Assembly (NCBI RefSeq): GCF_028290495.1
Contig: NZ_JAQGJT010000156.1
Location: forward strand, 54,063-118,062
DNA length: 64,000 bases
Reading direction: 5' to 3'
DNA from: Tardiphaga sp.
GTDB lineage: Bacteria; Pseudomonadota; Alphaproteobacteria; Rhizobiales; Xanthobacteraceae
Below the pieces are notes generated by a model that saw only the letters and a program-made list of their open reading frames with translations, did no database searches and was not told the DNA's origin. Of this stretch, positions 8,136-37,528 are shown in pieces (the first letter of the stretch is position 1; each line of letters begins with the position of its first letter). The position numbers were made by a program, and so were the translations under genes.

Positions 8136-8216
8136 CCGAGACCGATTGGACTCGTCCCGAATCCTGATGGGCCACAGTGGCGGCTGGGACGGCGGCGAGC
8201 CACCCGATTTCCGTTT

Positions 8217-8744
8217 TCATTCCCGCGCCGAACGACTTAGGCGCGCGCCGACATTGGGGGCAGCCTGCGTGAGTCGTCGGGAGGCGTGGATTCCTGCCTG
8301 AATGCTCGGCGACAGACCGTCCGCCATCGCGTCGATGTTGTGCAGCGTGCGCCGCAGCTTCTTGCTCGACGTTGAAGATGTGTATCGGAAGTAGACGACG
8401 TCCACGCCGACGGCGGCGAAATCCCGTTCCAGGCGGTCGCCCTTGTTCGAGCCGCGCCAGTCGTCTCCCTTGAAGAGCACGTTGAAGCGGAGGTCGCGCC
8501 AAATCTCGATCTTGTCGTTCGTCATCGCGGGGTGCGCGGCATCGACAAAGCGGACGTTGCGCACGATTTCAAGGCGTTCAGAGAGAGGGACGACGGGGGT
8601 GACGCCCTTGTGCATGGTCAGAACCTCGTCCGAGACCACTCCAGCGATGAGGAAATCGCACATGAGCTTGGCCTCACGGAGAAGATTGAGATGCCCTACG
8701 TGAAATAAATCGAAAGCGCCTGGCGCATAGCCGATGCGGATCAT
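8217..8744 (-). CDS. adenylyl/cytidylyltransferase family protein (glycerol-3-phosphate cytidylyltransferase-like)
   Basis: GYAPGAFDLFHVGHLNLLREAK (HxGH nucleotidyltransferase motif); TSSTSSKKLRRTL. Confidence 0.85.
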   Translation of the reverse strand: MIRIGYAPGAFDLFHVGHLNLLREAKLMCDFLIAGVVSDEVLTMHKGVTPVVPLSERLEIVRNVRFVDAAHPAMTNDKIEIWRDLRFNVLFKGDDWRGSNKGDRLERDFAAVGVDVVYFRYTSSTSSKKLRRTLHNIDAMADGLSPSIQAGIHASRRLTQAAPNVGARLSRSARE

Positions 8745-8945
8745 GTGGGTCGCCTTCCGGATTTTGTCAGCAATTCGATGAGGCAGACAATCGCAGTTCG
8801 GATAGGCAGCAGCGCTCCGCTTCATATTCCGGAATCGCATTGACTTTTGATAGAGCGGCAAACGATCGTTGGCGGAGCCAATTCAACCGTTGACATGCAA
8901 TACCCGCCATAGTTGAGTTTCCGGACAGGCAACGGGGGTTGGCAA

Positions 8946-9956
8946 ATGAAACGCCGTGATTTTCTCGGATTTTTTGGTGCGGCGCTCGTTGCATCGCCCA
9001 ATATCTCGTTCGGTCAGGCCGCGGCGCCCTTCTCCGGAACGAAACCGCTCCGAATCGTCGTCATAGCGAACACCTACTATGAGGGAGACGGCCTCATGAC
9101 AGCCCTGTGCAATAGGATGGCTCGAAACCCCAAACTCGATGTTCCGCGTGATTTAGCATGGCCGCGCAAGGTGCCCCAAGCCGATGCCGACGTCATGCCT
9201 AGACCGCGATGTTTGATCGACGCTCATGCCCAAACCGCAAACGCTGCCGCCGTTGTCGAGATTTGGTGCCTTGATGACCTGATGTCGGCCGCAATCTCGC
9301 ACGGGGCCAGTGACAACAAGGCGAAGGCTATGAAACTGATTACCGATTACGGTGCCACACCAGATGGCGTGGTCGCGTTCGGGACGGCTGGGTATCCCGG
9401 AGATATATCCTACGATGGATGCGCCACCATCGGCGGAACGATCTTTATTCGAGATGCGGCGAATGATGGCGGACCTATCCATAGCAACTGGACCTGGCCA
9501 GGCCATGTGGGAGTTCTTGTGCCGAGCAGCACGCCCGCGTCATTTTTTTCGAACGTGCTCGCGGACCCCCAAACCGTGACGAAAATCAATTCCCAAATGC
9601 TGGAAGTTCCCGTCAATCCGGCGTCTAAACCTCGCCTTGTGATCTCATCGGACGCCGTCGCCATCAGTTCGGTCAATATTCCGAAAGATACCGAGTTCGC
9701 GCCCGTCGACCTGAAGGCGATTGCTGCCGCGCAAGCGGCAGGTGCTACAAATATCGCTTCAGTGGAAACGACGCACGGGGTAATCCGTGCGCAATGGCCC
9801 GATGCACCGTTCATATATGTAACCGCAATACCCAATCGGGTCGGTCACTTTCAGGACGAGGCGCGAAACAATTACCCCCAAGAGTTTGGCTCGACTCACA
9901 ACGCCGGAATCGCGCTGAATCACATTATGCCCCATTTCGTAGAAGCCATCGCATAA
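8946..9956 (+). CDS. secreted (Tat-like signal) hypothetical protein, possibly nucleoside phosphorylase-superfamily-like
   Basis: MKRRDFLGFFGAALVASPNISFGQA signal; repeated ETTHGVIR / VTAIPNRVGHF segments; superfamily assignment is tentative. Confidence 0.6.
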   Translation: MKRRDFLGFFGAALVASPNISFGQAAAPFSGTKPLRIVVIANTYYEGDGLMTALCNRMARNPKLDVPRDLAWPRKVPQADADVMPRPRCLIDAHAQTANAAAVVEIWCLDDLMSAAISHGASDNKAKAMKLITDYGATPDGVVAFGTAGYPGDISYDGCATIGGTIFIRDAANDGGPIHSNWTWPGHVGVLVPSSTPASFFSNVLADPQTVTKINSQMLEVPVNPASKPRLVISSDAVAISSVNIPKDTEFAPVDLKAIAAAQAAGATNIASVETTHGVIRAQWPDAPFIYVTAIPNRVGHFQDEARNNYPQEFGSTHNAGIALNHIMPHFVEAIA

Positions 9957-10125: not shown

Positions 10126-11232
10126 ATGATAGACGTCAATCAGATACGGGATGCGAACATCGCACTTCATGGGCTAACGAGGGCCGACGAGACATACACT
10201 TTCTATTACGACGAGACGAACAACATCCGCCGTCTTCATGTCCGAGCGGACGGCTTGAACGTCAGCGATCCCAAATGCTTCGTGATCGCCGGAGTGGCTC
10301 ACCGCGGCCCCGTCCGAGACCTTGATCTGGAGGCGCTTCGTGGTCTTCTTCGCATCCAGAAGACCACCAAAGAAATCAAACTCGAGCATGTTGCGAAGGG
10401 AGATTTCCTCGAACTTCTGAAGGCCCGCAAGATTGAGATATTTCTGACATGGCTGCTCGACACAGGGCTTTTCATCCATTTCTCGGCACTCGATCCGCTT
10501 TATTGGTCCACAGTTGACATCGTCGACTCTATTCTGACGGAGCACGGTGAAAAGAATCTGCTCATGGCCAACCGCATGCTTAAGAATGCACTCTATTCGG
10601 TGCTGCGGCAGAATCAGGAAGATACCGTTGAGCTATTCCGGCGATATTCGTATCCGGATGTCGGACGCGAGCGTCGCCGTGCGTTCATCGCGGAGCTACG
10701 CCAGCGGCTCGACGTGCGCTACCAGTCGCTCGACGACTTCAGCGCCATGATGCTCAAAGGAGTCCTTCAGATAGCAGAAAAACTCGACGCGCTTCCCTAT
10801 CTCGAGGAGGAGGCCCCAAACGTGCTGATCGACGGATTTGGGCTCTTTTTCATCGTGCGGATTTGCCTCTTCAAGAACTCGTTCCACATCCTGGATGTCG
10901 AAAAGGTTGTTGAAGATTACATCGGCGACCAAGCTTTCGTCGACCGGGATCGTACGCTAAACATTTATCGTTTCGCGATGTCGCATGACGAACCAGGCAT
11001 ACAGATCTCGGATGTGATCGCGGGCCTCTTGGGAAAGTTCTTCTCAATGCTTCAGCGCAACGACATAGAGGATTTGTCCGAGGTCCGCCGCACACTAAGT
11101 CCGCAGCAAGTGCGGAATCTCAATCTCTTGAGGCGCCTGCTGGATCGATCCTTCGAGGAAAATCCGGCATTCCTCAATTACGTGATCAGCGAAGAAGACC
11201 AGAAGCGCGGTGCGTTCTTCATGGCCGAGTAA
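10126..11232 (+). CDS. DUF3800 domain-containing protein
   Basis: FYYDETNNIRR N-terminus and DEPGIQISDVIAGLL C-terminal motif, as in DUF3800 proteins. Confidence 0.75.
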   Translation: MIDVNQIRDANIALHGLTRADETYTFYYDETNNIRRLHVRADGLNVSDPKCFVIAGVAHRGPVRDLDLEALRGLLRIQKTTKEIKLEHVAKGDFLELLKARKIEIFLTWLLDTGLFIHFSALDPLYWSTVDIVDSILTEHGEKNLLMANRMLKNALYSVLRQNQEDTVELFRRYSYPDVGRERRRAFIAELRQRLDVRYQSLDDFSAMMLKGVLQIAEKLDALPYLEEEAPNVLIDGFGLFFIVRICLFKNSFHILDVEKVVEDYIGDQAFVDRDRTLNIYRFAMSHDEPGIQISDVIAGLLGKFFSMLQRNDIEDLSEVRRTLSPQQVRNLNLLRRLLDRSFEENPAFLNYVISEEDQKRGAFFMAE

Positions 11233-11346
11233 CCCTTCCGTCGCGCCATTACCGCGAAAGACATACACGGCGGATATATATCGCCGAAGTGCTTGAAACC
11301 TCTCGTTGTGGGCGCCACTGTAAGGCCCATCCGGGGGGGGCGATTC

Positions 11347-12939
11347 GTGTCGATCGAGCGTGTTATTGTTCGCAACTATCGAGCTTTGCGGAACGTGGAC
11401 GTCACGTTTGGGCCAGGCACCAACATCGTGGTCGGCAACAACGAGACCGGAAAGTCGACGTTGCTCGAGGCGATCAACCTCGCACTCAAGTGCCAGCTCG
11501 GTCGCCGGCCAGCAGCTTATGAGCTTCATCCCTTCCTTTTCAACGTAGAAACAGTCGCTGAATTTGTCGCCGCCCACAAGGCGAGGAAGCGATCTCCCCC
11601 TCCGGAGATAATGATCGAGCTTTATCTGAAGGAAAGCGACGCTCTCGCCGAACTTCAAGGATCGATCAATACCCTCTCGTTGGATCAGCCCGGCATTAGC
11701 CTCTCCATCCGACTCGATGAAAACTTCAAGGCGGAGTATCGGGAATACATCTCTGACCCCGAACATCTGAATAGTATTCCAGTCGAATTCTACGAAATCG
11801 TCTGGTTAAGTTTTGCTGGCGATCCCCTCAAGGCGCGAGCGATTCCGTTGAAGTCGGTCCTCATCGATCCAAGTTCGATCTCAAACACGAATGCCGCGAA
11901 CCGGTACATCCTGGAGATCGTCAGGGACTATCTGGACAAGGCGCAGGCAGTAGATCTCGCGCTGTCCTACCGAAAGATGCGCGATGACTTTGTCAGTGAT
12001 GGCAGGATCGCCGCTATCAACGAGGATCTCGCAGCCAAGACCGGCATCGTCTCCGACAAGACGTTGTCGGTCGCGATGGACATGACATCCAAAGCCGGGT
12101 GGGAATCCGGTGTGCTTCCCCATCTCGACAACATCCCGCTGACGCTTATTGGCAAGGGAGAGCAGAACGCCGTCAAGGTGAAGCTGGCGATGGAGGCCTC
12201 GGAGAGATGCGACATTTTCCTCATGGAAGAGCCGGAAAATCATCTTTCGCATACGAACCTCAATCGCCTTATCAACAAGATCATCGAAAAGTCGGCAGGA
12301 CGGCAGATCATCATTACCACGCACAGCAGCTTCGTGCTCAATAAGCTCGGCGTCGAAAACACTCTGATGTTCAACGGTAAAAATTCCTTCCGACTGAATG
12401 ACCTTCCCAAGTCGACCGAGTCCTATTTCCGGAAGCTGCCCGGATACGACACGCTGCGCATGATTCTGGCCTCCAAGACGCTGCTCGTCGAGGGGCCTTC
12501 CGACGAGCTTATCGTCCAAAAGGCGTTCCTGCAGACCCACGGCCGGCTACCGCTCGAGGCTGGTGTAGAGGTCATTTCCGTGAATTCTCTCGCATTCAAA
12601 CGGTTTTTGGATATTGCCAGGCTGCTCAAGCTAGAAGTGCGCGTGATTGGCGACAACGACGGAAAATCCGCTGCGAGGGCGCTGTCCTACGCACCATATG
12701 CCGCGGACGAGACCATCCAGATCCATATCGGTCAGGACGACTTGCTGCCGACGCTCGAACCTCAGCTTGTCCGAGTAAACGGCCTGGAGAAACTCAATCG
12801 CATCCTCGGAAAGCATTTCGCAAACGTGGACGATCTCACCGAATATATGAAGGCTCACAAATCTGAAACCGCTCTAAGACTGTTTGATAGCGATGAACCG
12901 ATCGACATCCCTGGATACATCCGCAATGCCATCGCCTAA
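11347..12939 (+). CDS. gajA: Gabija-type GajA-like OLD-family ATPase/TOPRIM nuclease
   Basis: Walker A GNNETGKSTLLEAI; FLMEEPENHLS; TTHSSFVLNKL; TOPRIM-like LLVEGPSDELIVQKAF...VIGDNDGK; GTG start proposed at 11347. Confidence 0.82.
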   Translation: MSIERVIVRNYRALRNVDVTFGPGTNIVVGNNETGKSTLLEAINLALKCQLGRRPAAYELHPFLFNVETVAEFVAAHKARKRSPPPEIMIELYLKESDALAELQGSINTLSLDQPGISLSIRLDENFKAEYREYISDPEHLNSIPVEFYEIVWLSFAGDPLKARAIPLKSVLIDPSSISNTNAANRYILEIVRDYLDKAQAVDLALSYRKMRDDFVSDGRIAAINEDLAAKTGIVSDKTLSVAMDMTSKAGWESGVLPHLDNIPLTLIGKGEQNAVKVKLAMEASERCDIFLMEEPENHLSHTNLNRLINKIIEKSAGRQIIITTHSSFVLNKLGVENTLMFNGKNSFRLNDLPKSTESYFRKLPGYDTLRMILASKTLLVEGPSDELIVQKAFLQTHGRLPLEAGVEVISVNSLAFKRFLDIARLLKLEVRVIGDNDGKSAARALSYAPYAADETIQIHIGQDDLLPTLEPQLVRVNGLEKLNRILGKHFANVDDLTEYMKAHKSETALRLFDSDEPIDIPGYIRNAIA

Positions 12940-14011
12940 TCGCGTGATTCTGGCTTGTGCTGGATCTGGAAAGACCACCAGCATTGTTCGAGACGCCTGT
13001 GACGAGGCCGTCATGCGCTCCGTCCTAGTGACCTATACCATCAACGGTGCGGGAGAGCTGTCGAAGGCGGCATATGCGCATGTCGACTCGATACCGCCTG
13101 AGATCACGATCAGCACTTGGTACAGCTTTCTCCTTCGCCATTTCGTCCGGCCTTACCAGAACCACCTGTATTCGCCACGCGTCTCGCGAATCAATTTCAA
13201 GCGCGGTGTTTCCGCGCGCTATTCGAACGCCAGGGACATTCGTCAGCATTATTTCTCGCGCGAAGGCACGATATATCTGGACAAGGTGTCGAAATTCGCA
13301 TGTGAGGTAATCAGGCGCACTGGCGGGCTTCCAATCCGCCGCTTCGAGCGCATCTTTGGCCGCTTGTACATCGATGAAAGTCAGGATCTGCAAGGCTTCG
13401 ATCTTGAGCTTGTAGAGGCGTTGCTCGAATCGAAGGTCGAGATCGTATTGGTCGGCGACCACAGGCAATCAACCTACTCGACGAACGACTCAAGGAAGAA
13501 TTCAAAATTCTCGCGCGCGAAAATAGTCGATAAATTCTCGGACTGGGAAAAACGCGGGCTTTGCAGCATCGAATATCAGACGGAAAGCCGTAGGTGTGTG
13601 CAGGCGATTTGCGATCTCGCCGACAGCTTCTATCCTACGTTTCCGACGACGACTTCGCGCAATTGCGAAGTCACCGGACATGACGGCGTGTTTGCGGTCC
13701 AGGAAAGCGACGTCGAACGGTATTTCGCACGCTTCGCTCCCCAGACGCTGCGGTACAACCGGACTCATATCGGCCTTCTCGGGGCGCCGATAAATTTCGG
13801 CATCGCGAAAGGCATGACTTTCCACAGGACGCTTATCTATCCACACGGTCCGCTACGGCAATTCCTGAGAACAGGCGATCTTGGCGATGCAGGAGCCCAA
13901 ATACCGTTGCTCTATGTCGCGGTCACCCGGGCACGTCAGAGTGTTGCGTTTGTCGTGCCCGACGGCTTTCGAGCAAAGGGCATTCCGATCTACCGGCCAG
14001 TCGAGGACTGA
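12926..14011 (+). CDS. gajB: Gabija-type GajB-like UvrD/REP helicase
   Basis: VILACAGSGKTTSIV (Walker A), YIDESQDLQGFDLELV (DExQ), VGDHRQSTYSTN, PLLYVAVTRARQSVAFVV; overlaps the gajA 3' end by 14 bp. Confidence 0.82.
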   Translation: MPSPNRVILACAGSGKTTSIVRDACDEAVMRSVLVTYTINGAGELSKAAYAHVDSIPPEITISTWYSFLLRHFVRPYQNHLYSPRVSRINFKRGVSARYSNARDIRQHYFSREGTIYLDKVSKFACEVIRRTGGLPIRRFERIFGRLYIDESQDLQGFDLELVEALLESKVEIVLVGDHRQSTYSTNDSRKNSKFSRAKIVDKFSDWEKRGLCSIEYQTESRRCVQAICDLADSFYPTFPTTTSRNCEVTGHDGVFAVQESDVERYFARFAPQTLRYNRTHIGLLGAPINFGIAKGMTFHRTLIYPHGPLRQFLRTGDLGDAGAQIPLLYVAVTRARQSVAFVVPDGFRAKGIPIYRPVED

Positions 14012-14115
14012 AAGAAAGTGGTTCGATTGTCGGCAAGTAAACCTCAGCTGATCACTCCAATCCGCCAGATATAATGCAGTCAGGCTGCGTCGGAGCTGGA
14101 GATGAGTGTAACAGT

Positions 14116-15079
14116 ATGCCAGAAGTGATCGATTTCAAAACGGCTCTGAACAGTATCGGCGCAGAATCCTGCTCCATTCTGCTCGGCAATGGCTTTTCTC
14201 ACGACTACTGTGGCTACAGTACGCTGCTTGAGAAAGCAGGACTGGATGCCGGCGAGCCCTGTAGGCGCCTCTTCGATCAGTTGGACACCCCGAACTTCGA
14301 GAGAGTCGTTCGCGCGCTCGAAGATGCGAGTACGGTCGAAGCGACTTACGGGCACACACAGCATGCCGCCCGGCTTCTGGCGGATGCCGGGGTTGTAAGA
14401 AGAGCTCTAATCAGCGCGATTCAGGCCGCCCATCCGACCCACCTTGACAAAATGAAGGGAGCAATTCCGGCGTGCCTGGAATTCTTGAACCCGTTTCGGA
14501 AGATATTCACGACCAATTACGACTTGCTCCTCTATTGGGTCATCATCAAATCCAATGGGAAATTCGGAGACGGGTTCTTCAAGGCAAGAGACGCGGACGG
14601 TTTCCGCGGACCGTTCGCGGAGGATCGTCTTTGCAACGTCTACAATATCCACGGCGGCCTTCATCTCTTCAGGCGCAAGGATGGCGAGATCGAAAAAAGG
14701 TTGGCGGGAAACGACGGCGGCCTCGAGGCGATTGGGCAAACTATTGCGGACGACCATCGGTATCCCATCTACGTTGCGGAAGGCAGTGCGGAATCGAAAC
14801 AAAAGCGGATCTGGGACGTCCCCTTATCTCAAGCTCTGTTTTCAACGACTGCAGGAGACCTCGGGCTGCTTCTTCGTCTACGGTTCGTCCGCGAACGAGA
14901 ACGACGCGCACATCTACAATGCGCTCTTCCGTTCTAGGATCAGCCATCTCTATTTTTGCGTATACGATCAGGCCGATCTGGCTATTTTCGACGGCAGACT
15001 TGCAAACTTCCAGAAATCTAACCGTTCCGATGTGCAGTACACCTTCGTGGATGCCAAGAGCGCAGGCGCATGGGGGTAA
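14116..15079 (+). pseudogene. DUF4917 family protein, frameshifted (frame 1 to about 14820, then frame 2 to 15079)
   Basis: Frame 1 SILLGNGFSHDYCG...IFTTNYDLLLYW; frame 2 continues SPYLKLCFQRLQETSGCFFVYGSSANENDAHIYNAL, the expected C-terminal motif; switch near C4 at 14820-14823. Confidence 0.72.
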
Positions 15080-15176: not shown

Positions 15177-16078
15177 TCACCCGATATCTGCCGGATGAAG
15201 CAAGTTCTCTAGGCCAATGTTGCGATACATCTCCCGACGCATGCGGTCGGCGACACCGTTGACGATCTCGGCTCCATCCTGCGAGGGATCGACATGTACG
15301 CGGAACGGTCGCTTCCCGAACGGTGTGTCCACAACCCGGACGATCTCTCGAGCGACGTCGGCTGGATCCGCATCGGCGGGCTCCAGGCGGGCAAGGCCCT
15401 TGAGCGCCATATCGGCGATCCCGGCATACGGGCCGTCTTCGTACTCGAACGCGCGGGCCCTATCCGACGGCTTTCCGGAATGGGCAAAATGATTGGTGCC
15501 CTTTGTGAAGGCCCCCGGCACCACGATGGTGGTCTCGATGCCCCAGAGAGCCAGTTCGGTCGAATAGGACACCGCCAACGCATCCATCGCCGCTTTGGCG
15601 GCGAAGTATGGCGCCAGGAATGGGGGGGCCCGCCGCGCGTCGAGCTCGACCCGACCCAGACCAGCAGGCCTTTGCGCTGCTCGCGCAGGTGGGGAAGCGC
15701 CGCCCGGTTGACCCGTTGGGCGCCGAGTACGTTGACGTCATACTGCTGAATGAACTGGTCGGGCATGAACGCCTCGGCGGGGCCGAAAACCATGTGTCCC
15801 GCATTATGGACGATGACATCGAGTCGTCCACTGTCCGCGACGATTTGCGCGACACCGGCTTCGGCCGACGCATCGGATTGAACGTCCAGTTCGACCGTAC
15901 GCAGATCGGCCCCAACCTTGGCGGCCCACGCCGCAGCGGTTGCCACCTGCGGCGCATTGCGCCCTACGGTCTCCCGCATGGAGGCGTATACGATGTAACC
16001 AGCCTGGGCCAATGCCTTTGCGGTCATGAGACCGAAGCCCGAGGAGGCGCCGGTGACTAGAATAACTTGCTTGGGCAT
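15177..16078 (-). pseudogene. SDR family oxidoreductase, frameshifted
   Basis: MPKQVILVTGASSGFGLMTAKAL ... SSSTRGGPP | FLAPYFAAKAAMDALAVSYSTEL across two frames; switch at the G7 run 15622-15628. Confidence 0.75.
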
Positions 16079-16133
16079 GACAGGGACCTCTTTGAATTCG
16101 CATTTTGGACTGTGGGGCAGGCCTAGGCGGGCG

Positions 16134-16874
16134 TCAGACGATTCCGCCGTTTGCGCGCAGCGTCTGACCGTTGATCCAGCCACCGTCAGGCCCCGCTAGG
16201 AAAGCGACGGCATCCGCGATATCGTCGGGCTGACCGAGGCGTTCCAGGGGCGGTAGTTTCGATAGGCGGTCGATCACTTCCTGTGGCTTTCCATCGAGGA
16301 AGAGATTGGTCGCTGTCGGGCCGGGCGCGACGGCGTTCACCGTGATGTCACGACCCCGCAGTTCTTTGGCGAGAATGCTGGTCATGGCTTCCACCGCCGC
16401 CTTGGTCGCGGCGTAGACACCGTAGGTCGGCTGCAGCAGGCCGACGACGCTGGACGACAGGTTTACGATCCGGCCGCCGTCGCGCAGCCGCTTCGACGCC
16501 TCGCGTAGCGTATTGAACGTGCCCTTGAGGTTGACGGCGACCTGGCGATCGAACAGGACGTCGTCGCTGTCGGCGATGCTCGCGAGCGTCATGATGCCGG
16601 CATTGTTGACGAGGACGTCGATACCTCCGAAGTCGCCTTCCGCCACGTCGAACATGCGCCGGACAGCGGCGGGGTCCGAAACATTGGCCTGGATAGCGAC
16701 TCCTCTGCCGCCAGCCGCTTCTATCTGGGCGACAATGGCCGCGGCGGGCGCGGCGTTGCCCGCATAGTTCACCACTACGGCGAACCCGTCTGCAGAGAGA
16801 CGCCGAGCGACCGCAGCGCCGATGCCGCCGGATGCCCCAGTCACGATGGCGACTTTGCTTGATGTATAGGTCAT
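16134..16874 (-). CDS. SDR family oxidoreductase
   Basis: TGASGGIGAAVA, LVNNAGI, YAATKAAVEAM (YxxxK), C-terminal GGWINGQTLRANGGIV. Confidence 0.92.
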   Translation of the reverse strand: MTYTSSKVAIVTGASGGIGAAVARRLSADGFAVVVNYAGNAAPAAAIVAQIEAAGGRGVAIQANVSDPAAVRRMFDVAEGDFGGIDVLVNNAGIMTLASIADSDDVLFDRQVAVNLKGTFNTLREASKRLRDGGRIVNLSSSVVGLLQPTYGVYAATKAAVEAMTSILAKELRGRDITVNAVAPGPTATNLFLDGKPQEVIDRLSKLPPLERLGQPDDIADAVAFLAGPDGGWINGQTLRANGGIV

Positions 16875-21389: not shown

Positions 21390-22652
21390 GTGACCAAGAA
21401 CATCCTCATCTTCGCGGACGGCACCGGAAACGAAGGCGGTCTGCTGCCGGACGAGAGCCGCACGAACGTCTACAAGCTCTACCGCGCAACGCGGACCGGG
21501 CCGGAGTCGGTCGTCGATCCCAGCAAGCAACTCGCCTTCTACGTGCCCGGCATAGGAACGCCGACGCCTCGGCACAATAGCTGGATCGCCCAGACCAAAG
21601 AGAAAGTTCGCCAAATGTTCGGCATGGGCCTCACCGAGAAGATCATGGACTGCTACGTCGCGATTATCGGTGTGTGGCAGCCCGGCGACCGCATCTACCT
21701 GTTCGGCTTCAGCCGCGGGGCCTACACGGCCAGGTGCCTGTCCCACGTCCTCGAAGTCTGCGGCGTCCCCACTAAGCAGCCTGGCCTACCGACGCTGAGC
21801 CTCGAACCCAAGTCTCTGCGGGGGGTCGCGAAGGAAGCGGTGGCATGCCTCTACAAGTTCGGTATGCCGATTACCGACGAGAAGACCCTAGCCGAGAGGC
21901 AGTCGAAGTTTCGGGCTGACTACGGCTCCCAGTTCGGCTTGGCGGCTGGGGCCTCGGCATATTTCATTGGGATCTGGGATGCTGTCGCGGCAATCGGATG
22001 GCAACGCTTTTTCCCGGATTGGACGTACGACCGGCACTTTTCGTCGGACGTCCAATATGCTCGGCACCTGCAGTCGATCGACGAAGGACGTAAGGACTTC
22101 AAGCGCGTGCCGTGGGGAGGTCACGGAACGGTCAAGTGGCCCGACAGGAAGAACGAGCCGGAGCAGTTCGACCAGATCTGGTTCGCCGGTAATCACGCGG
22201 ACATCGGAGGAAGCTATCCCGAAAACGAATCCCGCCTGTCCGACATCACCCTGACGTGGATGGTCGACTTCATCACCAAGAAGATTCCCGAGCCGAACTG
22301 CGTCATCGTCGATAAAGGCCTGCTGAAGCTCTATCCGTCCAGCGACGGGATGATGCACGACGAGTGCATGGTCGGCGTAGGCGGCACCTTCCTCAAGTGG
22401 TCCAAGGACATCCGCGACGTCTCCGACACGGCCCAGCTTCATGAGACCGTCTATGAACGTCTAGCAATGAAGTCGGTGCGAAACTTCACAAGCTTCGGGC
22501 CCTACCGGCCGGTAGCGCTGGAACACCATCTGAAGGCGAAGAAATACTTCGAGGCCGACAGCGCCGCGGCTGCAGAGCTGGCAATCACCTCTGCCTCATC
22601 TGGTCCGATCGTCGCAAGCACTGCGGACTCTCCGCCCGGCGCAGTAATGTAA
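21390..22652 (+). CDS. DUF2235 / T6SS Tle1-like phospholipase catalytic domain protein
   Basis: NILIFADGTGNEGG...GDRIYLFGFSRGAYTARCL (GxSxG lipase motif) ... WFAGNHADIGGSY. Confidence 0.85.
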   Translation: MTKNILIFADGTGNEGGLLPDESRTNVYKLYRATRTGPESVVDPSKQLAFYVPGIGTPTPRHNSWIAQTKEKVRQMFGMGLTEKIMDCYVAIIGVWQPGDRIYLFGFSRGAYTARCLSHVLEVCGVPTKQPGLPTLSLEPKSLRGVAKEAVACLYKFGMPITDEKTLAERQSKFRADYGSQFGLAAGASAYFIGIWDAVAAIGWQRFFPDWTYDRHFSSDVQYARHLQSIDEGRKDFKRVPWGGHGTVKWPDRKNEPEQFDQIWFAGNHADIGGSYPENESRLSDITLTWMVDFITKKIPEPNCVIVDKGLLKLYPSSDGMMHDECMVGVGGTFLKWSKDIRDVSDTAQLHETVYERLAMKSVRNFTSFGPYRPVALEHHLKAKKYFEADSAAAAELAITSASSGPIVASTADSPPGAVM

Positions 22653-22912: not shown

Positions 22913-24124
22913 CTAGAACGCCATCCCGTCCACCGTTGTGTACCGCACGTCGGTCACGTCTTCCATCGACCACCCCGCGTACGAAAGCACGTAAGGATCC
23001 GCTTCGCCCACGAAGCCGCCGCGATTGAGTATAACGATGTTGCGATTATCCTGTTCTTCGTCGCGCTGCATGGAAGATCGATATATGATCGCATCGCAAC
23101 CAAAGAACGACTTGAGATACTCGGCAACGATTTGCGTGGCAATATATTCACGCTGACGTTCATGGGGGCGGACCGGCCTGCTGATTTCGGCCTGCAACTG
23201 AGTGATGAAATCCCATCGGCTGTGCTCGACGAAGTGTCGACGATCTGCCGCTCGTCGATCGAAGGCTGTGAAGTCGAAGACCTTCAGCGGCACGCGTGTT
23301 CTGAATGTGCCGATCGCAATGGAATCGCCGATGCTGGGACGCAGTTCGCCCACGACCGTCGTCTTCGAAAATGCGGCGTAGAACACCGGAATGAATTCGA
23401 CGTTCATCCTGCCGCCCTGAGTCCGCTCCGACGGGGGAGGCCCCAGCTTTGCCGCTCCGCTCGCGTTGAGGACCTCTTCGGTCAGATCGTCGCGCATCAG
23501 GCGAGCCCGGTAGAGGGTTTGGGATGCCGCAAGGTCGTACAGCGGCTTCACGGGGCCCTCACCATACTCGGCGGGCTCGCCGAAAAGCTCGTCGAGCTTC
23601 TGCTTGATGCCGAAGAAGCGTGACGAGAACTGTACCTGTCTGCAGAACTCCTGCCATTCGAAGGCGTACCTGTTGGAAAACCAGTATTCGTCCTGATCGG
23701 CCTTCTCGCGGGACCGCGCCGTCTCTATGAGCTCGAAATTATGCGCGTCAGTGTAGTAGGGCTCGGCTCCCTTGGAGATGTCCCTGTCCGAGACGTCCGG
23801 AAGGGAGTCGATCACCGCCTCTGCCACCTCATCGGAAGCTCCGAGCTCGTCCGAGAATATCTCTTCGAAGGGTTGTCCTTCGGTGCCGTGATAGACGCGA
23901 TCGCTGTCGGGGCCCGTGTCCACCTCGAAAGTCTCGGCTCCAGGCTGGTAATTCTCCTGAAACCACCGATCGGCCTCTTCCGCCAATTCGTCGACCGTCA
24001 CGCAAGTGGCCGAGACGTGATCCGAGTCGAAATCGCAGTCGTCGGGCGTGCCAATCTCTTCGACCCAGACCCGAAGCTTCCCATCGGAGAGGCAAAGCGC
24101 ACAGATGTTTCGATCGTCGGCCAT
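22913..24124 (-). CDS. RES domain protein with N-terminal extension (HEPN/RES-NTD1-like; putative NAD+-phosphorylase toxin)
   Basis: LYRARLM ... FYAAFSKTTVVGELRPSIG ... VFDFTAFD ... YIATQIVAEYLK: RES pattern; N-terminal CALC...C region. Confidence 0.72.
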   Translation of the reverse strand: MADDRNICALCLSDGKLRVWVEEIGTPDDCDFDSDHVSATCVTVDELAEEADRWFQENYQPGAETFEVDTGPDSDRVYHGTEGQPFEEIFSDELGASDEVAEAVIDSLPDVSDRDISKGAEPYYTDAHNFELIETARSREKADQDEYWFSNRYAFEWQEFCRQVQFSSRFFGIKQKLDELFGEPAEYGEGPVKPLYDLAASQTLYRARLMRDDLTEEVLNASGAAKLGPPPSERTQGGRMNVEFIPVFYAAFSKTTVVGELRPSIGDSIAIGTFRTRVPLKVFDFTAFDRRAADRRHFVEHSRWDFITQLQAEISRPVRPHERQREYIATQIVAEYLKSFFGCDAIIYRSSMQRDEEQDNRNIVILNRGGFVGEADPYVLSYAGWSMEDVTDVRYTTVDGMAF

Positions 24125-24132
24125 GTGTCGAA

Positions 24133-24852
24133 CTACCCGTCCTGCGCCCCGTCGAGCTTCTCGCCCCGCGCGACGATCTTCAGCGCGCCGTCCGGCAGGG
24201 GACGCTGTAGCATGCTTGCTTCTTCCCAGGGAGCGTTCATCCAGACGTCGATGGCATCCGAGTTCGCGAGGATGACGGGCATCGCTTTGGGATGGACCGC
24301 GTGGATTTCGGCGTTGGCGTCGGTCGTCAGGAAGGCGAACAGATCGTTCGTGGTCTCGCCTTCCTTGATCATCCGGACGGAGGTCCAGTTCGTCCACAGA
24401 CCAGCAATGCAGACCAGGGGCTGGCTCCCGTCGAGAGCGAACCAGATATCTCCGCCGGCGTTCTTGTTGAATTCACTGAAAGACGTGAACGGCACGACGC
24501 ATCGATGTTCCGGCCCGGTCCATCGCTTCCAGTGCTCGAGGCGGCGGATGTTGGTCGTGCCCTTGTCCGGCTCTTTCCGGAGCAATTCCTTGAAGTCGAC
24601 CGGCTTACCCTTGGCTCCGGGCTTTTCGGCGCGCGTCTGCGCCTTCTTGAAGAGAGTTTGGGACGACCACGGCATGCCCCAGCGCAGCATGGCGAGCTCG
24701 CGTCCGCCCCCTGCGCCGTTGCGCACCACCGGTGCCATCTTGTCCGGAAAGGTGCCCGGCATGGATGGCAGGTTGCCGGCGCTATCCTTGTCGACCCTAA
24801 CGAGATTCTGGATCGCGGCCTGGTTTTTTGTCATGGAGTATAGATTGCACAT
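24133..24852 (-). CDS. SOS response-associated peptidase (SRAP / YedK-HMCES family)
   Basis: MCNLYSMT N-terminal catalytic Cys; [26 protein letters not shown]. Confidence 0.92.
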
Positions 24853-26070: not shown

Positions 26071-26829
26071 TTATTCTGAAACAAGCATCCGCTTGTCATC
26101 GACCATAACCAGGCTGAGCGTCTCGTCGCGAGAGATCCGGATCGTCTGTTCTCGGACATCGAAGCGAGCGGCGTCGTGGCGACCTAGCCAGGCGCCAGCC
26201 TCGATCTTACGTGGCGTGGCGTTATCCGGACGTCCACCGAACTGAATGCCGAAAGCCGAACTCTTGGGGTCGAGATCCTCCCGAGGGAACCAGTCCCTAC
26301 TCACGCTAGGCGACCGCGCAAACCACTTCCGTCCGCGGGACGTGTGGCAGATCACGAACCCGCGCAGCCGATCAAGCTCGATAAGCCGGATGGAGGTCGC
26401 CGTCAAACTCGACTTAAAGGCATCCGCCAGGCCTCTGATCGACGCGAAGTCGAATTTTTCGATCTGTCGCGCCATCGGCTCGAAGATGTAGCGGGGCATC
26501 AAAAGGTCGGCAGCATATGCATCGGCAACCTTTTCCGGGGAGCGACCTTCGCGGGGCTGATACTCGTCGACCCTGCAGACTAGCGTCTGACCTCGATGGA
26601 AACGCCAGTGCCCCAATTCGTGCGCGATCGAAAACCGCTTCCGTCGGCCCGAGCTTTCGGCCTTCACGGTTATCAAAGCGTGCCCATTGCAGCCCAGAAT
26701 GTGTGCCTCGCAGCCGGTTAGGGGGCGGAAGCGCACGCGTGCGCCGACGTGGTGGGCGATGGCCTCCAGATCGATTTCGCAGGGTTCGGTGATGCCAAGT
26801 TCCTGGAGGAGGGCTTCGGCCGGCGTCAC
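26071..26829 (-). CDS. ImmA/IrrE family metallo-endopeptidase
   Basis: RKRFSIAHELGHWRFH (HExxH) ... EKVADAYAADLLMP. Confidence 0.92.
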   Translation of the reverse strand: MTPAEALLQELGITEPCEIDLEAIAHHVGARVRFRPLTGCEAHILGCNGHALITVKAESSGRRKRFSIAHELGHWRFHRGQTLVCRVDEYQPREGRSPEKVADAYAADLLMPRYIFEPMARQIEKFDFASIRGLADAFKSSLTATSIRLIELDRLRGFVICHTSRGRKWFARSPSVSRDWFPREDLDPKSSAFGIQFGGRPDNATPRKIEAGAWLGRHDAARFDVREQTIRISRDETLSLVMVDDKRMLVSE

Positions 26830-27816: not shown

Positions 27817-28014
27817 CGCCTATGCGGCGCGCGGCAGCGCCGACGGACACCATCGTCAATTTTTTTTATTGAGATGTCCGCGAGGCCGGTTCGGCCCCGC
27901 ATAGGTAAATGAAGCCCGTTTTTGCAGCAACCCACGGGCGAATACAACCTGCGTTATGTCGTGATTGCGGCGGCGCAACCGTCTTTCTCGGGTGGCTGGC
28001 GAGTGAGGGACACA

Positions 28015-29166
28015 ATGGCAGTCAAGGCATCACATTTCAAAGTTGGGAACGGCGACATGACGTTGCTGGAGTGCGAGTCGGGCCGCCGCATCCTGGTGGA
28101 CATCAACATCCGGAGCGCTGCGGACGACGAGGCGGACGAGACGCCGGACGTTGCTAAGCAGCTTAAAAAGAAGCTGGACCGCGACGGCAAGGATCGGCTG
28201 TACATCGACGCGTTCCTCAACACGCATCCTGATGCGGACCACATCCGTGGCCTGAAGGAGCATTTCCATCTCGGTGACCCGTCGACATGGTCGAAGGTCG
28301 ACGACAAAATCATCATCCGTGAGATGTGGTCGTCGCCGATCGTATTCCGTCGAGCGAAGGCCAAGGATGAGGACCATGTCCTCTGCGAGGATGCCGAGGC
28401 TTGGCGCGACGAAGCGCGCCGACGAGCCAACAAGTTCAAGAAGGAAGGCACTGCCGAAGACGGAAACCGCATCTTGATCCTTGGAGAGGACGTCGACGGA
28501 AAGACTGACGACATCGCCGCGATCGTGGTGAAAGTGGACGAGGTCTTCTCCAAAATATGCGGCACGAAGGATACCTCGTTCGAAGCCAGGCTGCTGGCGC
28601 CGATGCCCGCGGCGGACGACACGGAAGAAGAAATTCTGACCAAGAACAACTCCAGCGTAATCATCCGGATCGATCTGAAGGTCTCGAAGGTCACCAAGGC
28701 CCGCTACTTGATCGGTGGGGACGCGGAAGTGGCGATCTGGGAGCGGATCTGGGAGCGCAACAAGAAGGTGCCAGAGCGCCTCGCATACGACGTGCTAATC
28801 GCTCCGCATCACTGTTCGTGGCATAGCCTTTCTTACGATAGCTGGTCAGAGAAGGCTGAAAAAGCCAAAGTCTCCGAACCTGCGCGCTGCGCTCTCGGCC
28901 AACCCCTCGACGGTGCGCTGATCGTGGCCAGCAGCAAAACCATCGAAGATGATGAGAGCGATCCGCCGTGCATCCGCGCCAAGCGCGAATACATCGACAT
29001 CCTCGATCCGGTGAAAGGCGAATTCAAATGTGTGGCCGAGAGTCCGGGTGACGATCCGCTGGTGATCGAGGTCTCCTCAGTTGGGCCGCGTATCAAGCGC
29101 GCGGCGTTCGCGGTGAGCGTCGCCGCCGGCACCGGCATCGGCAGCCAGCCGCTCGCTCACGGATAG
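28015..29166 (+). CDS. MBL-fold (ComEC-like) metallohydrolase
   Basis: FLNTHPDADHIRGL (HxxxDH-type metal motif); YDVLIAPHHCS. Confidence 0.82.
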   Translation: MAVKASHFKVGNGDMTLLECESGRRILVDINIRSAADDEADETPDVAKQLKKKLDRDGKDRLYIDAFLNTHPDADHIRGLKEHFHLGDPSTWSKVDDKIIIREMWSSPIVFRRAKAKDEDHVLCEDAEAWRDEARRRANKFKKEGTAEDGNRILILGEDVDGKTDDIAAIVVKVDEVFSKICGTKDTSFEARLLAPMPAADDTEEEILTKNNSSVIIRIDLKVSKVTKARYLIGGDAEVAIWERIWERNKKVPERLAYDVLIAPHHCSWHSLSYDSWSEKAEKAKVSEPARCALGQPLDGALIVASSKTIEDDESDPPCIRAKREYIDILDPVKGEFKCVAESPGDDPLVIEVSSVGPRIKRAAFAVSVAAGTGIGSQPLAHG

Positions 29167-29170
29167 GCCG

Positions 29171-31492
29171 ATGAAGCCTGTTACCACCGCGACCCACGAC
29201 ATTCCGGTGCCCGTTCGAAGGGCGCTTCGTCTGATCGAGGCGCATCCGTCAGTTGAACGGGTGACCGCGGACCGCGTCGAAGATGGCGACGTGACCGTCG
29301 CGATAGTCGAGATCCGGACCGAGCTTCCTAACGCCTGGAGGGCCGCAGGTCGCAGTCCCTCCGGTGTCCGGGCCGTCGAGCCGGTGATGTTCGCATTCAC
29401 GGCTGGATATCCGCTTGGACCACCGCGTATTCGCCTGCGAGCGGACTTCAATCGCGGTCACCCCCACATCCAGCCATCGAGAGACGGCGGACCACCGGAA
29501 CCGTGCCTGGTTGCGGGCTCACCTCGGGAAGTGCTGCGCGTCCGGGGGATGGGCGGACTCTTGGAGCAACTCGTCGACTGGCTCGACAAGGCGGCGATGG
29601 CGCAACTTATAGATCCGCAAAACGGCTGGGAGCCGGTGCGGCGGGATGGCATCGACGACGTCATCGTCGCAGACGCGACTTGGCTCACCAACCTACCGAC
29701 GCGCGACGGGGGCTGCTCGGTCTTTCCCGCCTGGTATTTTGCCTCACGGCGAGCGAATGTTGTTACGTATCGGATCGGTCTGCCACAAGCTTCTCCGGTG
29801 CCTCTGGGACCGAAATTTGCTGCCGAGTGGCGCTACTCGCCCGTCGGCGACCAAGGGTGGACGGGCAATACGCATGCGCTGGTCGCGTGGTCCGGGAAAC
29901 TGCCCACAGGATGGCCATTCGTCGCCGATCGTTATCTTCCCGAGACCGTCACGACGATCGATGAACTCCTTATACGCGCGGACGAATTGGGGTGCCGCGA
30001 GTTCTTGGAGCCGAAACTTGGCATTCTTCAGAGTCGCATTGCGGCATCGAAACTCAGGGACGGACAGCCAGTCGCGGTCCTTATGCTGGCGCGGCGCCCG
30101 TTCGACGTGATCGGCACGGCTTCGGCGATCGAGATATGCCCGTATGTGGTCGAATTGCGCGGGGGCGAGGCGCTCACGTCCGGAAGCGGTTTGGTGGTCA
30201 GGACGGCCATGCACCGGGCAGAGATCTCACCCGAGTTGCTGAGGCGCGCTGCGGGCGACGACGGGATGGCGCTGCTCCCTTGGACCTTGATCGGCTGCGG
30301 AAGCCTGGGATCGAAACTTGCCGTTTATCTGGCCAGGTCTGGACGCGGGCCCGCGGCCGTCATCGACGACGGCAGCATGCAACCCCACAATTTTGCTCGA
30401 TACGGCACACTCCCTTCGGAGAACAAGGTTGAAAGCTTCTGGTCCATCCCGAAGGCATATTATCTCGCGGACGCGCTGGCCCCTCTTAAGCAGCCCATAG
30501 TGCCGCACGACGTCGATATCGTCGCGCACGCATTCGGAGAAAAATCGATCGCCTCGCTGGTCGCGCCGAACAGCTTCGTCGTCGTCAATACCACCGGCTC
30601 CGCGAGCGTGCGAGAAGCGCTGGCCATGGCAGGTGTTGCCGCGAACCGTCCGCGGTCCATCGAAGCTTGCATGCTAGGGATCGGTAGCGTCGGCCTGATG
30701 GCGGTGGAAGGACCCGGGGCCAATCCGTCTGCAACAGATCTGATGTGCGAGGCGTACCGGCTCATCCACGCGGACCAGGGTCTGAGGCGCGAGGTATTCA
30801 ACACTCACGCCGAGGCGATCGCGATAGGGCAGGGGTGCTCGGCCATGACGATGCCGCTGTCCGACGGCCGCCTCTCGTCATTCGCGGCGCCGATGTCCGA
30901 GCACATTCGCCGGCTGCAGCGGGAAGGCCTCAAGGACCTTGGCGAAATTCTGCTCGGCAGCCTGGCGTCCGACGGATTGGATCTGCATTGGCAGCGCACC
31001 GAGATCAGACCGCGCATCATCGTGGGGGACGGAAACGGAAGCGTAGTGCGGCTGAGTCCCGAGGTCGATGAAACGATACGCCGCGAAATCGCAGCGCGCC
31101 CTGGCTCCGAGACCGGCGGCATCATCGTCGGCCGATATTCGGACGTCGCCGACGTCTTCCACGTCGTCGCCGCCATGCCGGCACCGCCCGACAGCAAATT
31201 TTCCCGCGACGAATTCGTGCTCGGCACCGAGGGGCTGCGCCCAATGTTGGAGGACCTGATCGAGGGGTCGGGTGGAGCGCTCTACGCTCTGGGCACCTGG
31301 CACAATCATCTCGTTCCGAGCGGGCCCTCCGGGACGGATATAGGGACCGCTGCGCTTCTTTCCATCAGCCAGTATTTTCCGCTTCTGATGCTCATCCACA
31401 CGCCGAGGGGATATGTGCACCTAACTGCAGAAGCATTTTCAGTCAGATCGAAAGCTGCGCCAGGGGAGGCAAACGATGAAAAATCCAGTTGA
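29171..31492 (+). CDS. E2-E1(ThiF)-JAB triple-domain ubiquitin-like conjugation protein
   Basis: N-terminal E2-like region with candidate Cys112 (GGPPEPCLV); central ThiF LIGCGSLGSKLAVYLARSG; C-terminal JAB/MPN ETGGIIVGRY...GTWHNHLVPSGPSGTD. Confidence 0.85.
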   Translation: MKPVTTATHDIPVPVRRALRLIEAHPSVERVTADRVEDGDVTVAIVEIRTELPNAWRAAGRSPSGVRAVEPVMFAFTAGYPLGPPRIRLRADFNRGHPHIQPSRDGGPPEPCLVAGSPREVLRVRGMGGLLEQLVDWLDKAAMAQLIDPQNGWEPVRRDGIDDVIVADATWLTNLPTRDGGCSVFPAWYFASRRANVVTYRIGLPQASPVPLGPKFAAEWRYSPVGDQGWTGNTHALVAWSGKLPTGWPFVADRYLPETVTTIDELLIRADELGCREFLEPKLGILQSRIAASKLRDGQPVAVLMLARRPFDVIGTASAIEICPYVVELRGGEALTSGSGLVVRTAMHRAEISPELLRRAAGDDGMALLPWTLIGCGSLGSKLAVYLARSGRGPAAVIDDGSMQPHNFARYGTLPSENKVESFWSIPKAYYLADALAPLKQPIVPHDVDIVAHAFGEKSIASLVAPNSFVVVNTTGSASVREALAMAGVAANRPRSIEACMLGIGSVGLMAVEGPGANPSATDLMCEAYRLIHADQGLRREVFNTHAEAIAIGQGCSAMTMPLSDGRLSSFAAPMSEHIRRLQREGLKDLGEILLGSLASDGLDLHWQRTEIRPRIIVGDGNGSVVRLSPEVDETIRREIAARPGSETGGIIVGRYSDVADVFHVVAAMPAPPDSKFSRDEFVLGTEGLRPMLEDLIEGSGGALYALGTWHNHLVPSGPSGTDIGTAALLSISQYFPLLMLIHTPRGYVHLTAEAFSVRSKAAPGEANDEKSS

Positions 31493-32273
31493 CGCGTACA
31501 CCGTTCAGGCACGCGTCGCTCCGGCGATCATTGCCGGCGCGCCGGCGTTTGCGTTCGCGGCGATCTTTCTATCGTTCGGAAAGATCGGCTTGCCGCATTT
31601 GATCGCTGGTACCGCGCTCGTCGTACTCTTCGGTGTGTTCTCAGACGTCGCCCGGCGACGTGGACGCGCGATCGAACCGTCGATTGTCGATAAGATGGGC
31701 GGCTTGCCGACGACCGTGACGCTGCGCCACCGAGATACCACACACGACGCAACAACGAAGGCAGGCTTCCATAAGTTTTTCGAAGCGAAACTCGGGCAGC
31801 CCGCACCGTCGCTGGACGACGAAAAGATCGATCCGATAGCCGCCGATGCCTATTACGCCCGCGGCGCCGCTTGGCTGCGTGAAAACACACGGAATGCGAA
31901 GAAATTCGACCTGCTATTCAATGAGAACGTTAGCTACGGATTCCGACGCAATCTCCTCGGTCTCAAGACGCCGGGCTTTCTGCTCAATGCCATCATCGTA
32001 ATCGTCTGCCTTGCGATATTCTGGCGCCGTTGGCCCGTCGATCTATCGAATGGCTTCGACGGGAAGCTTCTGGCCGTCATCGTGATCGCGGTACTGCACG
32101 CGGCCTATCTCGCGTTTTTCGTGACGGAGGAGGGTGTATTCGAAGCTGCACGGATCTACGCGCGTCAGCTCCTCCTGAGTACTCAATCGCCGCACCTGAA
32201 TAAGCCGGAAAAATCTTCTCCTGCGCCGCGGCGCGACGCAAGTCGATCGCGAGCCGCAGCCAAGGCAAAGTGA
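31476..32273 (+). CDS. membrane protein (putative effector/partner of the E2-E1-JAB module)
   Basis: TM segments APAFAFAAIFLSFGKIGL, IAGTALVVLFGVF, LLNAIIVIVCLAIFW, LLAVIVIAVLHAAYLAFFV; overlaps the E2-E1-JAB stop. Confidence 0.7.
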   Translation: MKNPVDAYTVQARVAPAIIAGAPAFAFAAIFLSFGKIGLPHLIAGTALVVLFGVFSDVARRRGRAIEPSIVDKMGGLPTTVTLRHRDTTHDATTKAGFHKFFEAKLGQPAPSLDDEKIDPIAADAYYARGAAWLRENTRNAKKFDLLFNENVSYGFRRNLLGLKTPGFLLNAIIVIVCLAIFWRRWPVDLSNGFDGKLLAVIVIAVLHAAYLAFFVTEEGVFEAARIYARQLLLSTQSPHLNKPEKSSPAPRRDASRSRAAAKAK

Positions 32274-34512: not shown

Positions 34513-35159
34513 ATGCCGCTGCGCTCCCGGTGTCACCCGTCGCCAAAGCCTCAAAAAAACCCAATAAAAACAACCTCCCCTTGAAGTCTTGCCGTACGCG
34601 AGAACTTGGGATTTCGGAGATTTGACGCTGGAGACGGCGTTTTTCTCCAAAGCTTCGTACTGCGGCGATTTGGTACGGTTTTCAAAGGCAGCAATTTACG
34701 GCGTTTGCGGCTGTGGTCTTGATGACGGTTCGAATCCCTGTCGGTCGGGCACTGCCTGTTAGCTATATCACCCTCCGAATCCTCCATTTCAGCCAGGCAC
34801 TCCGGGCATTCGGCCGGGAGAGCTGATTAATCGAAATGGCCTGAAATTATCTGGCTCGCATTCGGGAAAATCTGTGACTGGCCAACTTTGCTCTGAACGA
34901 GTGTGAAATTCTCGAAAGTCTCCGGCGGGAATCCGCGAATTTCCCTTATCCAGAGACCTTCAGCGAAGACAAAGTTGATCTTTACCAATAACGGCGGGAG
35001 CGGCGCGGCTGCCGTCTTTGGTTCCAAAAAAGAGCGGATTGGGGGCCAGGCGTGCCGGCGATCGCCGCAACGCACTTGCCAATGTACTCGATGGACAACT
35101 ACCGCGTGACCGATAGAAGTGACATGCGCGGGCGGCTTGCCTCGCGTTGGGGGAGACGC

Positions 35160-36905
35160 ATGAAGCCACGACCGAGCGCAAGCGACATCACGGTGCTTGA
35201 AACCCTTGAGCGGCTTGATACCGATTTCGCAGCCGTAGTCGATGGCATCGAACGTGGTGAGTTCGCCCTATGGGTGGGGTCAGGCATTTCCCGCTGCGCG
35301 CCGAGCCTTGGTGGGCTAATTAGCCGGGCAATCGAGTTCATCCGCCTTAAGGCGGTCGATCCGGCCACCCAGGCAAAGTTCGAGCCCGTCTTTGTGGCCG
35401 CCCTCACGCTGGCTGTGGATGATCCAGAAACGCTGCGCGCGAATTTCGCCAGTGCATTCGAAACCTGGACGCAACGTGAAAAAATCGTCAAGGCGCTGTG
35501 GAAGCAATATTCCAAGTTCCTCGATATTCCTGTCGATGGAGAACAGCCAGACTATCTGCTTTGGGAAGCCGTCGACATCCGCCGGGCGTTCGAGAGTCCC
35601 GCTCCCCCGGCCGCCGAACACCTGTGCATTGCCATCCTCATTCTAGAGGGCGCCGTGCGAGAGGTCGCGTCGGGCAATTGGGACGGCTTCATCGAGGCGG
35701 CGGTGGAGCGCCTGAGTCCTGGCGTGCCCGGTCTGCTACAAGTCGTCGTCGATCCCAACCATTTGCGCGATGCGGCGGGCAAGGCCCGTCTGCTCAAGTT
35801 TCATGGCTGTATTATCCATGCGACCCAAGCACCTAACGACTATCGCAAATATCTGACCGCCACCGAAATCCAGATTATCGATTGGCCGAATAAGCAGGAG
35901 TTAGCCCCGATGAAGGCGGCTATCACTGCCGTCGCCACAAACTACAAGACGCTGATGTTCGGGCTCTCTGTGCAAGACGCCAATCTGCATGGCGTTTTCT
36001 CCGCAGCGCGGCAGACAAATCCGTGGCCGTGGCCCTGCGCGCCCAACGCCCAGGGACATGTCTTCTGTGAAGACACGCTGCAGCCTGGCCAGAAGACCAT
36101 GCTGCGGGCGGTCTACGGCGCTGGGTACAATGTCAATATCAACGCCATCGAAACTAGCGCGCACCTGCGGGCGTGGGGCGAGCAGGCCCTTCTGGCCCTC
36201 GTGCTGAAGATCCTGACTCACAAGCTATGCGTCCTGGCGACTGCGCGCCTGGAGGCCACGGGGTTGGCGGCCGACGCCGGCGCGGTCAACTCTGGCATCT
36301 CTAGCCTTCGCGACGCTGTCGCGAGCCAAGCAGTTGGTGATCGCACGGCTTTCGTGAACGAAGCGATCGGTGCTTGGTCGCGGACCCTTCGCCTATTCCG
36401 CAAGGGGGACCTTCCGCTGCAGCCCGACGCTTATGAAGTGCTCAGCGCCTCGTCGCCTGCTCAACTCGCTGCCGACCAGAACGCTCAGGCATCCGGGCTG
36501 GGTGAACTTGCGATCGCGCTCGCTATGCTTGACCACGGTGCAGGAGAAAAGCTCTGGACGCTCAAATCGACCTCATCGAGCGCTCTGGCAGATGGAGCCT
36601 TCACGGCAGTAGCTTCGTGGAATGGAGCGACGGAACGGCCGGTGTTCATCGTGCGATCCGCCGGCATTGCCATCGAACTGGAAAAGCAGGGCGCGTTCGC
36701 TAATGACAACGCCATCGTCATTCACGGTGACGACCTCTGGCACATGATGAGGGACGCGTCAGGAGGTAGCGCGCGTGGGCCCAAGCGCGCGCCGGGTCGA
36801 ACGGGCATGCCGGGCACACGCCACGTGAGCATTGCGCGAATGATCGAATCCGAGCCGGATATCGCTAGTCTGCAGAAACGCTTCATCGGAGAGGTAACGC
36901 TATGA
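35160..36905 (+). CDS. SIR2-like domain protein (Lamassu LmuA-type effector)
   Basis: FALWVGSGISRCAPSLGGLISRA SIR2-like motif; LLKFHGCI; first gene of a three-gene overlapping operon. Confidence 0.78.
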   Translation: MKPRPSASDITVLETLERLDTDFAAVVDGIERGEFALWVGSGISRCAPSLGGLISRAIEFIRLKAVDPATQAKFEPVFVAALTLAVDDPETLRANFASAFETWTQREKIVKALWKQYSKFLDIPVDGEQPDYLLWEAVDIRRAFESPAPPAAEHLCIAILILEGAVREVASGNWDGFIEAAVERLSPGVPGLLQVVVDPNHLRDAAGKARLLKFHGCIIHATQAPNDYRKYLTATEIQIIDWPNKQELAPMKAAITAVATNYKTLMFGLSVQDANLHGVFSAARQTNPWPWPCAPNAQGHVFCEDTLQPGQKTMLRAVYGAGYNVNINAIETSAHLRAWGEQALLALVLKILTHKLCVLATARLEATGLAADAGAVNSGISSLRDAVASQAVGDRTAFVNEAIGAWSRTLRLFRKGDLPLQPDAYEVLSASSPAQLAADQNAQASGLGELAIALAMLDHGAGEKLWTLKSTSSSALADGAFTAVASWNGATERPVFIVRSAGIAIELEKQGAFANDNAIVIHGDDLWHMMRDASGGSARGPKRAPGRTGMPGTRHVSIARMIESEPDIASLQKRFIGEVTL

Positions 36906-37528
36906 GCGACGCCCTTCTCGTTCAGGCGCTGGTATCTCGCCTCAAGGTCATGGGCTACGAGAGCTTAGTGACCCCATTTCGGGTTGCAACCGTCGAGTTC
37001 CAGTTCACGGCAGCGTTGCGCGGCAGGCAAGGCCGTGCCCTCGATCTGGTTCTTGTCGTAGACACCTCTATAGGTGACCATGGCGATCGCGAACCCGAAC
37101 GGGTTAAGCGACGCGTGGAGGCGTTAAGCCGCGCGTTGGATGTGACCGGATCGCGCTACGTCCTCACCGTCATTCTTGCTGGCGCGGCTCTGGCCGGCAA
37201 CGTCGATGCCCTGTCGGAGACGTGTCGAGTTCTGAACGTCGAAGGGATCCGTCTTAACGACAAGGGCCAACCGGAAAACGCTGAAGCGGCCGAGGCCTTA
37301 GACGATCAGATCCGCGTGCTGTTGCCTTTGGACCTCAAGGGCACCGGAAGCGAGCCAGCTCCAACGAGCCTCAACGCGATGGCGATGCTGGGCGCTGCGC
37401 TGCCCGCCGACTTTGATCCTGAGCTTCTCAACATGCTCGTCTTAGCATCGGCGGCCGGCGAGGACGCAGTCGAGACCGCGATCGGCGGCGCCATCGATGC
37501 AGCCTTGGCAACGGGTGAAAAGCCATGA
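36902..37528 (+). CDS. small accessory protein (Lamassu LmuC-like)
   Basis: 4-bp overlaps with both neighbours; position and size fit the Lamassu middle subunit. Confidence 0.6.
   Translation: MSDALLVQALVSRLKVMGYESLVTPFRVATVEFQFTAALRGRQGRALDLVLVVDTSIGDHGDREPERVKRRVEALSRALDVTGSRYVLTVILAGAALAGNVDALSETCRVLNVEGIRLNDKGQPENAEAAEALDDQIRVLLPLDLKGTGSEPAPTSLNAMAMLGAALPADFDPELLNMLVLASAAGEDAVETAIGGAIDAALATGEKP

Follow-up and report, generated by a model that had tools for sequence, protein, structure and literature searches.

Gabija, as described in Bacillus cereus VD045, is encoded by two adjoining genes, one for an OLD-type ATPase–TOPRIM nuclease, GajA (578 aa), and one for a UvrD-like helicase, GajB (494 aa). 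Mutation of residue E379 of this GajA abolishes nicking (PMC8136825). A compact subtype of Gabija already counts as a known kind, because PADLOC holds dedicated models for it, separate from the others (PDLC00102/00098 and PDLC00148/00140). Proteins with a DUF3800 domain have been described in other settings: those associated with CRISPR are described as RNase H-fold nucleases (Cas12a2; type VI-F and V-A2 loci) (PMC10910872, PMC12669027), and in retron type VII-A1 the domain is fused to the retron reverse transcriptase (RT), to go by the name of the model, RT-DUF3800. PADLOC also lists one family with DUF3800, PDC-S51, and one with DUF4917, PDC-S21, as single-gene defence candidates.

The window, that is, the whole stretch of 64,000 nucleotides of Tardiphaga sp. 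analysed here (contig NZ_JAQGJT010000156.1), harbors at positions 10126–15079 four plus-strand coding regions, for a DUF3800 protein, GajA, GajB and a DUF4917 protein (Table 1). A first-pass annotation had presented them as a four-gene defence locus. The four same-strand genes are real and occupy the places assigned to them, but they very probably do not form one system, and the broken frame of the DUF4917 gene had been missed. The locus is, with high confidence, a two-gene compact Gabija in a low-G+C defence island, flanked by unrelated, independently mobile single-gene candidates. The pair itself is a known and ordinary representative of the compact subtype.

Table 1. Features of the locus, and the phage sites that hold a DUF3800 gene (positions in the window unless a locus is named).
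Feature	Position	Strand	Matches and remarks
DUF3800 protein (368 aa)	10126..11232	+	PF12686, 27 bits (cut-off 21); PADLOC PDC-S51, 366 bits
GajA, OLD-family ATPase + TOPRIM nuclease domain (530 aa from the most likely start, GTG)	11347..12939	+	PADLOC PDLC00102, 738 bits
GajB, compact UvrD/Rep-type helicase (361 aa)	12926..14011	+	PADLOC PDLC00148, 418 bits
DUF4917, 5' part (NGFS, TTNYD and IHGGLH motifs)	14116..14820	+	PF16263, 116 bits; PADLOC PDC-S21, 193 bits
C-run, site of the DUF4917 frame shift	14820..14823	+	ORFs match PF16263 1-224 and 222-311 in different frames
DUF4917, 3' part, other frame (GSSANENDAH motif region)	14824..15079	+	PF16263 222-311; PDC-S21 247-334
DUF3800 gene in fun(Z) site	L103:6001-7107; L105:4001-5107		P2-like phage and E. 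coli prophage

The central pair had been called Gabija from the start, and the call is borne out by the motifs of GajA, the profile matches of GajB and the scores of both proteins against dedicated, clade-specific PADLOC models (Table 1). As in B. cereus VD045, the gene of an OLD-type ATPase–TOPRIM nuclease adjoins that of a UvrD-like helicase of superfamily 1, which lies directly downstream. GajA combines an OLD-like ATPase with a TOPRIM domain that keeps the catalytic glutamate and the DxD motif. An alignment of 16 homologues shows little or no variation at the Walker A lysine, in the EEPENHLS region or at E382, D436/D438 and K505, and E382 aligns with the catalytic E379 of the B. cereus protein. 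The clade profile of GajB matches the solved chains of B. cereus GajB (about 5e-15), as well as motifs of Rep, V/VI among them. Both proteins are shorter than their B. cereus counterparts. GajB owes its length to the stretch between its GDxRQ and KGxTF motifs, which spans only about 115 residues, and this short stretch, together with the alignment to Rep, suggests that the 2B subdomain is probably missing. Outside the conserved motifs, there is little sequence identity to Gabija proteins studied by experiment. The overlap of 14 bp between the two genes, also reported in the first-pass annotation, is exact, the ATG of GajB standing at 12926 and the stop codon of GajA ending at 12939; in contrast, spacers of about 114 bp and 104 bp separate DUF3800 from GajA and GajB from DUF4917.

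For all four genes, biochemical and defence activities can be proposed. Following the model for B. cereus Gabija, the ATPase domain of GajA would keep its TOPRIM nuclease inactive until nucleotide levels drop through phage replication; GajA would then nick DNA, with GajB assisting. The flanking proteins would each act alone, the DUF3800 protein as an RNase H-fold nuclease and the DUF4917 protein as a SIR2-type NADase that depletes NAD+.

The G+C content is 53.5–55% across the four-gene stretch versus about 60–63% outside it, as expected for an acquired island. The SDR genes to the right are conserved in genomes of the same genus. The insertion site without the island could not be reconstructed, because the left flank (8200–9950) has no good same-genus counterpart. 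The DUF4917 gene is split by a one-base shift in a C-run (Table 1), and its relatives are uninterrupted. The adjoining SDR gene (15177–16183, minus strand) has a frame shift of its own, at a C-run near 15622, and intact copies of it occur in genomes of the same genus. Since this neighbor too is shifted in a C-run, the break in DUF4917 may equally well be a homopolymer sequencing error or true decay; unless it is such an error, the protein is probably not made in this assembly. A pair of frame shifts about 0.8 kb apart would also fit a non-functional remnant, a decaying locus in which Gabija itself is perhaps inactive. This reading is very unlikely, as DUF3800, GajA and GajB are full-length with conserved family motifs, and as both shifts lie in C-runs, where sequencing errors typically occur, in an assembly of 231 contigs.

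The proposal that a Gabija variant uses DUF3800, as an RNase H-like nuclease, and DUF4917, as a SIR2 NADase, for accessory effectors that share its trigger has several features of the locus on its side. The four genes lie on one strand with short intergenic gaps, so that they could be co-transcribed in this genome, they share the low-G+C block, and PADLOC independently ties both flanking families to defence. Promoter and terminator scans found fewer sites than in shuffled sequences and are uninformative on co-transcription. Related loci speak against the proposal. A sampled set of 31 GajA loci (30–87% identity) was assembled from contigs of GTDB genomes, from plasmids and from whole-genome samples. 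Iterated profiles of the four proteins were run against every six-frame ORF of 60 aa or more, up to about 7 kb on each side as far as the contig reached (flanks are short at L002, L045 and L046, near contig edges). GajB follows GajA immediately, and usually overlaps it, in 28 of these loci; the other three are at a contig edge or have a truncated GajA. The pairing spans Alphaproteobacteria, Gammaproteobacteria, Verrucomicrobia and Streptomyces. Within the searched flanks, DUF3800 and DUF4917 are found in none of the 31. The DNA of the two nearest relatives (87% protein identity, about 78–79% at the DNA level) is homologous from 11290 and 11292 onward, just upstream of GajA, so that the GajAB cassette has its left edge in the gap between the DUF3800 gene and GajA.

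Co-occurrence points the same way. GajA is present in 8 of 398 evenly sampled genomes from this order, against 2 with DUF3800 and 5 with DUF4917, and the genome of the window is the sole one to have more than one of the three. Taken alone this result is weak, because the counts outside that genome are small and the chance overlap expected is far below one; the adjacency result is not weak. With the frame shift of DUF4917, if real, and the Gabija-free contexts of both flanking families as further points against it, a single four-gene unit is rejected by the neighbourhood and co-occurrence tests on the sampled loci and genomes, and the probability left to it is even smaller than that of the remnant. 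The suggestion that the flanking genes are accessory components of the locus is thus not supported in this sample, their recurrence next to related GajAB being the test that it had itself named. The other possibility raised in the first-pass annotation, adjacent defences, is supported, since both families occur elsewhere without Gabija and both are PADLOC candidates. A candidate four-gene defence system is in this way struck off by direct comparison.

Least probable of all is a non-defence role of the OLD nuclease and helicase, for example in repair or plasmid maintenance, as the low identity to studied Gabija and the OLD family members with assigned roles in DNA repair and replication (PMC8136825) might suggest, against which stand the clade-specific Gabija models, the patchy distribution of GajA in the order (8 of 398 genomes) and the neighbouring defence genes, QatA-D and AbiE among them.

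This GajA clade was not found in a scan of viral contigs. About 1,600 matches on enterobacterial plasmids were rejected as members of the clade, as they belong to a distant group with about 27% identity. That group is itself a GajA-like and UvrD pair, carried mostly in Klebsiella and E. coli and mostly on conjugative plasmids.

The DUF3800 protein of the window is a full-length match to the stand-alone PDC-S51 candidate, and the DETNN and QxSD motifs are invariant among its relatives. Probably it is a nuclease with an RNase H fold that works alone, after the published predictions for the family. The AlphaFold2 model of the window protein, built from an input of 7 sequences, reached a pLDDT of 44, too poor for a fold search, and when solved structures were searched by profile, nothing came up but spurious hits on protein A. 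Unlike the RT-DUF3800 and CRISPR-associated forms, it is a lone protein, neither fused nor joined to an RT or a Cas protein, and it does not match the RT-DUF3800 models of PADLOC. Relatives without Gabija are found on plasmids, next to AbiEii, beside unrelated genes and, at two loci, near retrons, one a retron III-A pair of PRTase and RT (L075:263-4039) and the other a retron type IX RT (L036:7001-10766). In phage fiAA91-ss and E. coli prophages, the DUF3800 gene lies inverted between the tail genes G and FI, which is the place of fun(Z) in phage P2, so that it replaces fun(Z) in these P2-like prophages (Table 1). This G–FI allele is present in 6 of 5,426 complete E. coli genomes. The P2 locus holding fun has been reported as a second defence-enriched site (PMC9519451). 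A testable by-product of the comparison is that, in P2-like prophages, the defence site of fun(Z) is taken by the PDC-S51 family.

The DUF4917 protein is most likely a stand-alone SIR2-type NADase, because a predicted model of a close relative (L081; pLDDT 85) matches best the SIR2 subunits of SIR2-HerA (1e-9), followed by other sirtuins, and because the SIR2-type motifs TxNYD and HG are conserved across 18 family members wherever they are covered. The SIR2 fold of the family is thus a prediction, combining this model with the family alignment. Family members also match Pfam AbiH and SIR2_2 weakly, and a profile search of solved structures by sequence found nothing. Unlike in SIR2-HerA, no HerA partner is seen near the DUF4917 gene of the window, which matches PDC-S21 as a lone gene with a broken frame. 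In viral contigs, its relatives are lone inverted genes, such as one between the gpV and gpS homologues of a P2-like element (L092) and another between lysis and terminase genes (L093). A DUF4917 gene is also inserted between the specificity and restriction subunit genes of a type I restriction system (L086:3545-9307). A second testable by-product is that PDC-S21 would be a family of SIR2-fold, probable NADase genes carried alone by prophages.

Other genes of note are found elsewhere in the window. The plus-strand operon at 27922–32273 encodes a metallo-beta-lactamase-like protein, a 773-aa protein that joins E2, ThiF/E1 and JAB domains of prokaryotic type in a single chain, and one unmatched protein. 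It resembles a defence operon for ubiquitin-like conjugation, or one related to CBASS, although none of the ORFs seen is an obvious cyclase, and upstream of it lies a gene for a CapP-like peptidase (26071–26829, minus strand; PADLOC capP, 192 bits). A further plus-strand operon, at 35052–39966, encodes a SIR2_2-domain protein of 617 aa, an unmatched protein of 208 aa and an SMC-like ATPase that matches LmuB (3e-31). The ATPase is the only one of the three matched by PADLOC, and the three genes make up a Lamassu-like operon with a putative SIR2 effector. A large serine recombinase with Resolvase, Recombinase and zinc ribbon domains, encoded at 41643–43088 on the minus strand, is possibly the integrase of the neighbouring island. 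Finally, the gene at 22913–24397 (minus strand) encodes a protein with a RES domain, and the one at 21390–22652 (plus strand) a protein that has a Tle1-like phospholipase domain.
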